Source of the DNA: Spirochaetota bacterium
Lineage (GTDB): Bacteria; Spirochaetota; UBA4802; UB4802
Reading direction: 5' to 3'
Assembly: GCA_040756435.1 (NCBI GenBank)
Contig: JBFLZD010000037.1
Span: 1-36,270, forward strand
Length of the DNA: 36,270 nt
The position numbers and the translations under genes were made by a program. Below, one piece after another: positions 10,276 through 19,490 of the stretch. The notes under the pieces were generated by a model. It saw only the letters and a list, made by a program, of their open reading frames with translations, ran no database searches and was not told where the DNA came from. Numbering within the stretch: the first letter of the stretch is position 1; each line of letters opens with the position of its first letter.

Positions 10276-10419
10276 TTAATAAAATCCCTGGTATTCGTTG
10301 CGGGAAATGCGGTACTTTCGTCTATAATACTTGACAATGGCAGGCTTAATCATAAGGTAGCTGGCAATTATCCTGTCCGGCCAACCATATTCCAGGAGTT
10401 TTAAAATTGTTTTTCTCAT
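10276..10419 (-). CDS. 47-residue basic protein, possible helix-turn-helix
   Basis: The start has a near-perfect ribosome binding site (AAGGAGGA at 10431-10424, four bases before the ATG), the strongest in this part of the window. The product begins MRKTILKLLEYGWPDRIIAS and continues through YLMIKPAIVKYYRRKY. It is basic, helical in appearance, and the stretch WPDRIIASYLMIKPAIVKYY has the spacing of a helix-turn-helix whose second helix would be PAIVKYYRRKY. It is too short for most gene callers. No neighbour indicates its role. The strong translation signal and regular composition favour a real gene; DNA binding is inference. Confidence 0.6.
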   Translation of the reverse strand: MRKTILKLLEYGWPDRIIASYLMIKPAIVKYYRRKYRISRNEYQGFY

Positions 10420-10630
10420 GCTTTCCTCCTTGATTTTTGGGCAGACTATTCCGTTGGATTTATATTATAAGTAATTATAAATTTTGCAAGCTTTTTTTAG
10501 TAAAAAATTTAAAATTTTTTCCGATAAATATAAACCTGGCACAAAAATTTTATGTCACATTAGAATGGGTAATACCCTCACCATGAGGATGTGCTAAAAA
10601 GATACCTCATTTCAATTACTTTGCACCCGC
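10420..10630. other. AT-rich leader of the 47-residue gene
   Basis: Apart from the ribosome binding site next to 10419 the stretch holds no gene. A TATAAT-type box on the minus strand near 10467 could be the promoter -10 of the small gene, with only a poor -35. Confidence 0.3.
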
Positions 10631-10730
10631 GTCATTGCGAGGAACGAAGTGACGAAGCAATCTTGCTTTTTACGGCATTGAGATTGCTTCACTTTGACAT
10701 GCTCAGCGCAAGCGCTACACTCGCAATGAC
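10631..10730. repeat. Long palindromic interspersed repeat (GTCATTGCGAG type)
   Basis: GTCATTGCGAG (10631-10641) and CTCGCAATGAC (10720-10730) are exact inverted ends. Inside them GAAGCAATCT and AGATTGCTTC also pair, so the 100-bp element folds into one long imperfect hairpin. The ends match, from memory, a repeat family found in many unrelated bacteria beginning with this same word. A partial extra copy of the end (GTCATTGTGA) follows at 10742. It has no coding capacity and resembles a MITE. Confidence 0.85.
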
Positions 10731-10800
10731 ATTGCACTCTCGTCATTGTGAACTCCACGGTTTGCTTTGAGATGGCCCGATGTTCATTATTTGATAATAA

Positions 10801-10920
10801 GGGAACTTCTAAAAACTGTTTTTTTTGGATGTTCCCTTGTGGCCACAATATATATGTTAAAACTGCTTTCTATTATGTGAATAATTTCTGAAGAAAGCAG
10901 TTTTTTTGACGTGCCCATAA
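10801..10920. repeat. 120-bp folded intergenic repeat, copy A
   Basis: The unit begins GGGAACTTCTAAAAACTG and ends GTGCCCATAA. It contains two hairpins. The first pairs GGGAAC (10801-10806) with GTTCCC (10831-10836). The second has a perfect 13-bp stem, AAAACTGCTTTCT (10859-10871) with AGAAAGCAGTTTT (10892-10904), enclosed by GTGGCCAC and GTGCCCAT. Copy B follows with no gap. Confidence 0.9.
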
Positions 10921-11039
10921 GGGAACTTCTAAAAACTGTTTTTTTTGGATGTTCCCTTGTGGCCACAATATATACGTTAAAACTGCTTTCTAATTTATGA
11001 ATAATTTTGGAGGAAAGCAGTTTTTAGATGTGCCCATAA
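10921..11039. repeat. 120-bp folded intergenic repeat, copy B
   Basis: Tandem to copy A at a 120-bp period and nearly identical over the first 60 bases. The second hairpin keeps CTGCTTTC paired with GAAAGCAG, while its loop has diverged. Confidence 0.9.
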
Positions 11040-11109
11040 ATAATACTTGTTTTTTAACCTGTTATTTTGTAGTGTATCCTGCATAAACAAAGTAATGTGT
11101 AAAAAATTA

Positions 11110-11227
11110 GGGAACTTATGGAAACTGTTTTTACGGAAGTTCCTTTGTGGGCACAATATATAGGACAAGACCGCTTTCTTTTTAGTGCATCCGTACTGAT
11201 GAAAGCGGTTTTTAGAGGTGCTCATAA
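11110..11227. repeat. 120-bp folded intergenic repeat, copy C
   Basis: A diverged copy ending about 27 bases before the bactofilin start. Its second stem is CCGCTTTC with GAAAGCGG, where copies A and B have CTGCTTTC with GAAAGCAG. Both sides changed together, which preserves pairing. Its first stem is longer (GGAACTT with AAGTTCC). Confidence 0.85.
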
Positions 11228-11253
11228 ATATTATAGTGATAAATAATAGGAAT

Positions 11254-11613
11254 ATGGCACGGACAAATAAATTTAATATCGAAGACAATATTGTTAACAG
11301 TATCATAGGCGAAGGTTCTGAATTCAAAGGCGAATTTAACATTAACGGATTACTGCGTATAGATGGTAAATTCAAGGGAACTATCGCCACTGATGGTAAG
11401 GTGCTTATTGGGCAAACAGGCGAAGCCATAACCGACATCAAGGCACGCGTGGTGGTGATAGGCGGCACTGTGAAAGGCAATATCTATGCCACGGAGCGGG
11501 TGATTATGCTGTCAACCGGTACCATACATGGCAATGTCATAACGCCAAGCCTTATTATGGAAGATGGTGTTATTTTTGAGGGTAACTGCACTATAAACAA
11601 GAGGCAGGAATGA
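11254..11613 (+). CDS. Bactofilin (polymer-forming cytoskeletal protein)
   Basis: A 119-residue protein dominated by a single bactofilin (DUF583/CcmA) beta-helix, which self-assembles into filaments at the membrane. Typical repeats are visible: GEGSEFKGEFNINGLLRIDGKFKG, then VLIGQTGEAITDIKARVVVIGGTVKGNIYA, then GTIHGNVITPSLIMEDGVIFEG. I chose ATG 11254 (MARTNKF, preceded by AGGA) over the GTG at 11218, which lies inside repeat copy C. It starts a tightly spaced run of genes: the yaaR-type gene begins one base after its stop. In other bacteria bactofilins act in cell shape, peptidoglycan positioning and chromosome-segregation scaffolding, and parAB lies about 5 kb away. K-G-T-I-A-T near residue 44 is encoded by a GCGATAGT copy. 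Confidence 0.93.
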   Translation: MARTNKFNIEDNIVNSIIGEGSEFKGEFNINGLLRIDGKFKGTIATDGKVLIGQTGEAITDIKARVVVIGGTVKGNIYATERVIMLSTGTIHGNVITPSLIMEDGVIFEGNCTINKRQE

Positions 11614-17975: not shown

Positions 17976-18051
17976 TGATAGCTCCCTTTGAAAAATATTC
18001 CCAATTATATGACAATCACTATATATGGTTAATCAAAATAGTGACATATAA
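17976..18051 (-). promoter_or_regulatory. parAB promoter region with inverted repeat
   Basis: A TATAAT -10 lies on the minus strand at 18009-18004; a -35 is not clear. TCACTAT (18016-18022) and ATAGTGA (18038-18044) are exact inverted copies 15 bases apart, just upstream of the -10. They could bind a regulator, possibly ParA or ParB autoregulation, which is inference. Confidence 0.4.
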
Positions 18052-18169
18052 GGGAACTTCTAAAAACTGTTTTTCAGGATGTTCCCTTGTGGGCACAATA
18101 TAATAGGATAAAACCGCTTTCTATTATATGAGTAATTACGGAAGAAACCGGTTTTTAGAGGTGCCCATA
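18052..18169. repeat. 120-bp folded intergenic repeat, copy D
   Basis: The fourth copy, about 7 kb from the other three and just upstream of the parAB promoter. It begins GGGAACTTCTAAAAACTG and ends GTGCCCATA. The outer GTGGGCAC/GTGCCCA pairing is intact. The second stem (AAAACCGCTTTCT with GAAACCGGTTTT) has a mismatch compared with copy C. Confidence 0.9.
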
Positions 18170-18296
18170 CATTTACTGCTCTGATATATGGTGTCAATAA
18201 ATGTATACATATGTATGAATTGTATACCTTCAATTGCAAGCTTTTTTTATCATATACGTACACCACCGGAGGTTGTGGGGAAATATAATAAGCTAT
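18170..18296. other. Gap between repeat copy D and the next gene
   Basis: AT-rich with a perfect 12-bp palindrome ATACATATGTAT at 18205-18216 flanked by two GTATAC words. No gene is supported; the minus-strand frame that spans this gap runs through the repeat. Confidence 0.3.
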
Positions 18297-19490
18297 TTAT
18301 TGTTGCCTATGGATAAAATGCCCATCCCTGAACCAATAGCGGCGTTTTCCGGTAAATTTCCGTGGATTTATCCTCTTCCATGTCAACCCTAAAAGCACAA
18401 TGACAGCAATGGCACCCATGCTAAGGCGCACTAGCGGCATATACGGAATTATGCGCCTACCCTGTGCTATAACCAGTGCAAAAGGTTTATAGGCTGCCCT
18501 GTTACACTGATACACACGTACTGTAACATCCTGAGTTATAGGGTTATACCATGATATTTCATTTATAAATCCACTGTCCCATGAACCCAAAAGTTTTTTG
18601 CCTGCAAAAATATCAACCTGTACCGGGTAAGAAGTTGGAAGATAAATGGTAACAGCGCCATGGGGCAGTGTGCACGTATAACTTCTGGCATATTCATCCG
18701 CTTTAAACGTGTCAACCACCGATAATGCTATGCTCTGACCCCAGTACCACGCTTTCTGTAACAGTTCATCAACCAGCATGCCATACGCTGTTCTGAAAAT
18801 AAAATAGCGCATGTATAGTGAATCTTCACCGGTATGGTATGCCGAATAATACACCACGCCATTGCCATATTTTTTAAAGAATGCAACAGGCCCTTCCCGC
18901 TCGCCTCCAATAGTGGGGAAATACCCTTTGGCCAGTATGGATGCATTAGCTTTTTGTAATGCCACCCAGCCATTATAATTGACAGTAAGTTGCATATCAT
19001 CACGCATAACAAATGAAGCAAAATCATCATTTAAAAAGCTGTGGATCCTGCCACTGGTGCCATAATGTGGGAAATTATTAAAAAAGGACAGGGAACACCC
19101 CAATGCTTCAACAAACCTGTATGAATAACCTGCAGCATACAACCTGCCACCACTTTTCACAAAATCCTGAAGCAGTGCATGTAATCGCTTATAATCAATA
19201 CCCTCATAATCATCTTTTAATGCAACACCCTGAATACGCTGCCCATGTGCCATTACCTGAATACTTGCCTCAATAGGCTGCTCAACACCGCAGGGTATAA
19301 ACACAGCATCAAATCCTGACAGGGAACTATCGCCCGCTACTACTGATGCACGTTTTATGATATACGGAATATGATATACATCAAGGAGTGTGGTGAGGTT
19401 ATCATGATAGGATTTGAACACCAATACCCGTGGTGCTGCCTCAACGCGCAATGTAAAAAAAAGCATGGCAAGAATGACTAAAATCCTCAT
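18297..19490 (-). CDS. Secreted, membrane-anchored protein with GATase-like N-terminus, unknown
   Basis: 397 residues. An N-terminal signal peptide (MRILVILAMLFFTLRVEAAP) should export it. The next 240 residues resemble a class I glutamine-amidotransferase or ThuA-like alpha/beta fold (FDAVFIPCGV, LQDFVKSGGRLYAAGYSY, YGNGVVYYSAYHTGED); this is a fold guess. A beta-rich segment follows (about 275-340). A transmembrane helix at about 353-373 (MGAIAVIVLLGLTW) ends in a basic tail. It is therefore probably held in the cytoplasmic membrane facing outwards. Its start codon overlaps the stop of the upstream 618-residue gene by four bases, so translation is coupled and the products probably act together. 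Confidence 0.75.
   Translation of the reverse strand: MRILVILAMLFFTLRVEAAPRVLVFKSYHDNLTTLLDVYHIPYIIKRASVVAGDSSLSGFDAVFIPCGVEQPIEASIQVMAHGQRIQGVALKDDYEGIDYKRLHALLQDFVKSGGRLYAAGYSYRFVEALGCSLSFFNNFPHYGTSGRIHSFLNDDFASFVMRDDMQLTVNYNGWVALQKANASILAKGYFPTIGGEREGPVAFFKKYGNGVVYYSAYHTGEDSLYMRYFIFRTAYGMLVDELLQKAWYWGQSIALSVVDTFKADEYARSYTCTLPHGAVTIYLPTSYPVQVDIFAGKKLLGSWDSGFINEISWYNPITQDVTVRVYQCNRAAYKPFALVIAQGRRIIPYMPLVRLSMGAIAVIVLLGLTWKRINPRKFTGKRRYWFRDGHFIHRQQ

Follow-up and report, generated by a model that had tools for sequence, protein, structure and literature searches.

Short two-hairpin repeats in Spirochaetota that are probably non-autonomous mobile elements of the MITE class

The closest described counterparts of the repeats reported here are short mobile or repetitive DNAs of other bacteria. 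The CIR elements of Caulobacter (CcrM-associated intergenic repeats; PMC2229807) are short and intergenic; a linker connects their two stem-loop arms, they have TA at their termini, and no autonomous partner is known. Our family shares all of these features. However, CIR carries a GANTC motif in the loop of an arm, while the consensus of our family lacks GANTC, and the two come from different phyla (we compared them by description). MITEs of the ERIC, RUP, and Correia type (PMC2229807, PMC10969869) also resemble our family: they are about 100–200 bp long, occupy AT-rich intergenic sites, have imperfect terminal repeats and a stable fold, and occur in forms with internal deletions. RUP, ERIC, and Correia elements all have TA at their termini (PMC2229807), as does our family. 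Judged again by description, these elements form mainly one stem by pairing of their 5' and 3' parts (ERIC is 127 bp with a single long stem), whereas our family has two adjacent arms. Our family also has an asymmetric target, ATAA, and we found no insertion sequence (IS) with the same ends, whereas RUP has IS630-Spn1.

Two systems that use single-strand transposases are similar in other ways. IS608, of the IS200/IS605 group, inserts 3' of TTAC, which stays in the left flank and is read by a guide (PMC5934647). Like IS608, our family has a fixed tetranucleotide in the left flank, a fixed orientation, hairpins at its ends, and a short internal sequence that is complementary to the target. Unlike IS608, it has no internal tnpA; it has one common central TTGT (a putative guide), whereas IS608 has a guide 5' of each palindrome; and its left hairpin is terminal rather than subterminal. 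REP/REPIN sequences with RAYT (PMC8266576, PMC3116915) have two palindromes, as our family does, and mobilisation in trans by a Y1 protein is possible. But our family has no GTAG tag and longer palindromes, and the RAYT genes of the genome that we studied carry other repeats.

Four copies in one window and their family

We analysed a window (the whole stretch of DNA, 36,270 nucleotides of contig JBFLZD010000037.1 in assembly GCA_040756435.1) from a 3.6-Mb Spirochaetota genome. The original prediction was that four copies of a repeat with two hairpins and an outer helix lie in this window. All four are where they were claimed to be, and they fold far better than dinucleotide shuffles do (z = -5.1 to -7.2; none of 200 shuffles equalled them). 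The unit consists of ATAA, hairpin H1 (GGGAAC..GTTCCC), TTGT, an outer helix (GGGCAC..GTGCCC) around hairpin H2 (AAAACYGCTTTC..GAAAGCRGTTTT), and a second ATAA. The ends of the element are ATAAGGGAAC..GTGCCCATAA. The copies and their parts, all on the + strand, are:

10797..10920, +: copy A, from ATAA to ATAA; the right ATAA (10917-10920) is common with copy B; missing in the sister species G003
10917..11039, +: copy B, in tandem with copy A (94% identity over 109 nt); missing in G003
11106..11227, +: copy C; the left flank, ATAA in the empty site, has become ATTA, and the right flank is ATAA; precise empty site in G003
18048..18170, +: copy D, between parA and 18297-19490; left ATAA, right ATAC; not in G003, which has another IS there
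10801..10836, +: H1 of copy A, with arms GGGAAC (10801-10806) and GTTCCC (10831-10836)
10837..10840, +: central TTGT of copy A, complementary to both terminal ATAAs (with one G.T); putative guide
10841..10916, +: outer helix of copy A, GGCCAC (10841-10846; GGGCAC in the family consensus) with GTGCCC (10911-10916)
10859..10904, +: H2 of copy A, AAAACTGCTTTCT (10859-10871) with AGAAAGCAGTTTT (10892-10904)
11167..11212, +: H2 of copy C, AAGACCGCTTTC / GAAAGCGGTTTT

Copies A and B adjoin in head-to-tail order, with a single ATAA serving both, and copy C follows after a gap of about 70 bp. Because copies A and B have private changes in common (GTGGCCAC, within 10797-11039) and are each other's closest relatives, the tandem probably originated when a copy was duplicated locally or when a dimer was inserted. 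As predicted, the copies do not code for protein; the minus-strand frame at 10995-11480 (161 amino acids) is spurious. We also noticed a separate inverted repeat (GTCATTGCGAGG...) at 10631-10735, just upstream of copy A. Its motif has 43 matches in about 212 kb of loci from the studied genome, and it is missing from the corresponding site in G003.

A genome-wide search with a covariance model had been suggested along with the prediction. Using BLAST and then a covariance model built from 31 copies, we found 78 distinct copies in the studied genome (82 rows minus 4 opposite-strand echoes), of which copies A-D are four. The copies are about 120 bp long, dispersed, and, once spurious frames are discounted, all intergenic. 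In the orientation of the element, the flanking genes are divergent for 27 copies, co-directional for about 36, and convergent for 8. From our reading of the printed sequences and tables, about 10 copies start within a few bases of the end of a gene, and at several of these, the gene's TAA stop codon is part of the target.

The family has matches in 23 of 296 Spirochaetota genomes sampled (15 of 138 genera). Most of these are from the same order, and the relatives are divergent. A scan of 84,980 species genomes for exact 19-mers found Spirochaetota MAGs and a MAG of the same genus; the three single matches outside of those are probably due to chance. Between subfamilies, the stems diverge strongly, while the ends and the central CCCTTGTGGGC are kept. 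The terminal inverted repeat is imperfect (25-nt arms, 84% complementary). A scan against Rfam, with gathering and relaxed thresholds, gave no credible family and no match over the gathering score, and we found no description of the end motifs in the literature that we searched. The family is apparently new to the literature, but it is of a known kind (small non-coding MITEs) and not a new sort of gene.

Empty sites, boundaries, and size forms

The sister species G003 is about 92% identical to the studied genome in the region of copies A-D. In G003, the A+B site (CATAATAAATAATACTTG / CATTATTTCATAATAAATAATACTTG) and the copy C site (AAAAAATAAATATTATA / GTAAAAAATAAATATTATATTG) are both uninterrupted, with one ATAA each. 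These precise empty sites imply that A+B and C are recent insertions of a mobile element. They also contradict inheritance by vertical descent only, which predicts that the sites should be filled in all relatives. In one further intergenic region, the insertions are reciprocal: the studied genome has a copy where G003 is empty, and vice versa. The copy D site in G003 is not clean; the copy is missing, but another IS occupies its place. (This IS has GGGGCTGTCCCAAAA ends and breaks G003 contigs, at the end of locus L247 and the start of locus L259.) Another copy, C10:10833, is older, as it is common to the studied genome and G002.

The boundaries of the element are sharp. The outermost A on each side is present in 68 of 73 copies, and the next base out is at background. 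The left and right ATAA are conserved in about 93% of the 73 copies, always in one orientation relative to the element, and the same rule holds in other genera. A check for target-site duplications had been proposed; there is an ATAA on both sides of the element and one in the empty site, but a duplication and a target plus an element end look alike.

Forms of 56–230 bp, which are internally deleted, expanded, or nested, retain both ends, and they occur at several loci. For instance, genome G139 has copies that are 97% identical alongside forms of 56–88 bp and others whose H2 contains an insert. Genome G104 has a compound element of about 228 bp, with another repeat inside H2, at seven of the sites whose sequences we read. 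Since both deleted and expanded forms keep the two ends, the ends suffice for spread, which places these mobile elements in the MITE class. We propose that the repeats are non-autonomous mobile DNA elements of this class in Spirochaetota, and we consider this quite likely. Inserted copies would decay neutrally, and some of them, in 5' leaders or on stop codons, would be transcribed by accident.

Three observations concern individual loci. In the G104 compound (L283-L289), a second repeat family (GGGCGGTCACAAAAACC..) is nested in H2, and the two repeats have spread as one. In G139, a truncated copy at C7:33923 (L161 / L174) has the H2 hairpin and a T-run straight after the apparent stop codon of secA; this is possibly a co-opted terminator. 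And a recurring motif, CAGTAACTATCGC, adjoins several copies and a RAYT locus (L085, L098, L213, L198).

We also considered that the repeat might be a structured regulatory RNA or attenuator that was copied to many operons and is kept for its function. The fold is stable at the RNA level, its stems covary, and copy C separates the start codon of bactofilin (PF04519; start codon at 11254) from a conserved promoter-like block. By our own reading of the sequences, this block, at about 11043-11084 (ACTTGTTTTTTAACC..TTTTGTAGTGTATCCTGCA), is conserved in several related species and is probably a promoter. Given its position between the block and the start codon, copy C is probably transcribed within the bactofilin leader; copies A and B are upstream of the block. 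However, the regulatory-RNA explanation is largely refuted, and we consider it very improbable: insertion and loss are lineage-specific, the copies are found on either side and in both orientations of unrelated genes (many of them between divergent genes), their pairs are often broken, and none matched Rfam over the gathering score. A role as a terminator was rejected as well, as there is no terminator-like site in 10400-11400 and just 8 copies are between convergent genes. The original prediction stated that the copies flank bactofilin and parAB. Copies A-C are indeed upstream of bactofilin and copy D is by parA, but the proximity to parAB is a coincidence that involves one copy out of 78.

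Compensated changes in the stems

The idea that the repeat is spread or maintained via a folded form came from one pair in a stem, which changes from T-A in copies A and B (CTGCTTTC/GAAAGCAG) to C-G in copy C (CCGCTTTC/GAAAGCGG). This change is real. (Copy D also has C-G at this pair, but the next pair inward is a C.C mismatch.) Nevertheless, the pair is weak evidence. Across 73 copies in the studied genome, it is T-A in 20, C-G in 18, T-G in 4, and unpaired in 31 (mostly C.A). As a caution, a compensated pair that seemed to be strong evidence in three copies fails to pair in 42% of the copies in this genome. Most changes to stems in this genome just break a pair, and overall pairing in the first 31 copies was 92.3%, versus 91.8% in shuffles. 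Random loss of pairing in further copies had been named as a result that would speak against the prediction, and the broken pairs in this genome partly agree with it.

The mobility of the element (from the empty sites) and compensated changes elsewhere in the family do favor the folded form. Among 74 copies, we counted 68 double changes, versus 34.5 expected and about 22 in slid controls, although this count is inflated by related copies and the alignment was fitted to the structure. In G139, whose copies are near-identical, the mid-stem pair equivalent to the one above is T-A in 5 copies, C-G in 5, A-T in 5, and A.A in 3. Double changes in G139 numbered 11, versus 4.2 in permutations (0 of 2000 were as high). 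When we compared H2 between genera or subfamilies, an element's own arms paired at 13.6 of 16 positions, versus 11.3 if arms were swapped between genomes. In contrast, the terminal repeats showed no covariation (12.55 with their own partner and 12.52 when swapped), and we rejected long-range pairing of the terminal repeats as a conserved fold. These swaps imply that the two-arm fold has been kept over long times and that long-range terminal pairing has not. Furthermore, paired columns vary less than unpaired columns (5.8% versus 14.2%). RNAalifold, given 31 copies, recovered H1 alone, owing to gappy columns.

Compensated changes alone do not show function, because repair of palindromes by template switching or mixing of subfamilies yields the same pattern. 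Selection at transposition, template switching, and mixing can each account for the stems. That the covariation reflects template switching in the hairpin or mixing, and not selection on the fold, is a serious possibility, if a little short of an even one. The compensated changes gather at one mid-stem pair, the T-A, C-G, and A-T states recur in copies that otherwise differ, and C.A and A.A intermediates occur. On the other hand, whole stems diverge between genera yet still pair, as if folding were needed in the long term.

How the elements might move

We tentatively propose that the elements move as single strands, mobilised in trans by an HUH transposase (a Y1 protein, like those of IS200/IS605 or RAYT); we put this at slightly under an even chance. 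The element would leave one site and enter another as a folded single strand, with the hairpins marking its ends. The 4-nt ATAA would have two roles, as the target (which stays in the left flank) and as the site of cleavage at the right end, and would perhaps be read through pairing with the central TTGT/TTAT. The circular junction of the excised element would read GTGCCCATAAGGGAAC. Y1_Tnp genes are present in 17 of 21 carrier genomes, and we counted them in carriers only. The four carriers without a Y1 gene include G125, which is 73% complete and has two apparently identical copies of the element.

Alternatively, the family could be a MITE derived from a DDE-type IS that duplicates TA upon insertion (IS630/Tc1 type, or the ISAzo13 or IS427 group). 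The element would then be AGGGAAC..GTGCCCA flanked by TA, and the stems would be by-products of imperfect terminal inverted repeats. We consider this somewhat unlikely. TA is found on both sides of nearly all copies, the terminal repeat is inverted and imperfect (25 nt, 84% complementary), and in G011 and G125, the base after TA acts as part of the element. The empty sites do not distinguish the two mechanisms, as duplication of TA or of a specific 4 bp predicts the same sites. However, the target A-TA-A is always in one orientation. A DDE enzyme that acts on two inverted ends and duplicates TA should accept both orientations, and a single-strand (HUH) enzyme should not. Also, the internal partner arms (GTTCCC and GGGCAC) and H2 are conserved, though a DDE enzyme needs only the ends, and pairing of the terminal repeats does not covary (12.55 own, 12.52 swapped). 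Finally, a search for DDE enzymes of the IS630 type (DDE_3) found them in 0 of 18 carrier genomes. The asymmetric ATAA, the conserved hairpins, and the incidence of Y1 (17 of 21) and IS630-type genes (0 of 18) lead us to favor an HUH enzyme in trans over DDE and TA duplication.

Among HUH enzymes, RAYT (TnpA_REP) proteins were an obvious candidate, and a search for a REP-type transposase had been proposed. There are indeed about 15 RAYT-size Y1 genes in the studied genome, with the HUH motif DNHIHLVIH, and the two tandem hairpins resemble a REPIN. But these genes are flanked by other REP-like units (AAACCCCGAAGGGGTGA..GGGGTCAGAGC), and no element of our family is near them. Furthermore, our family lacks a GTAG-type tag, and its unit is 120 bp, not palindromes of 20–50 nt (PMC8266576). 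We consider it improbable that our family is a REPIN-like element spread by these RAYTs. (Several of the RAYT genes, such as L183, L191, L198, and L206, are about 80% identical to each other, and this is an unusually large set for one genome.)

We looked for an autonomous partner in several ways. None of 30 Y1 loci had element ends or a nearby copy, apart from one weak match (E = 0.22). In the studied genome, we found about three unpaired end motifs, which is within the control level; the other ends belong to elements of about 120 bp. (A full-length IS can be lost from a MAG assembly where contigs break.) In six other genomes, there was no autonomous partner among the matches listed, and one may exist in these or in other genomes of the phylum. 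Although no related autonomous IS with the same ends was found in the studied genome, orphan MITEs such as ERIC do not require one.

In most subfamilies, the ATAA at either end is complementary to the central TTGT, or to the TTAT that some copies have in its place, which is suggestive of a guide. However, TTGT also just lengthens the stems, and G125 has ATAT ends, with which its central linker pairs poorly. We speculate that one shared TTGT/TTAT between the hairpins pairs successively with two ATAAs, that of the target and that at the right end of the element itself, but this is doubtful. If it is true, then these repeats would be a phylum-wide class of single-strand DNA elements whose choice of target is set by one shared guide. 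As it stands, the family is a Spirochaetota-wide addition to the MITEs of bacteria, and the question of how orphan MITEs move becomes testable through its two-arm fold, the compensated changes in its stems, and the directionality of its ATAA target.
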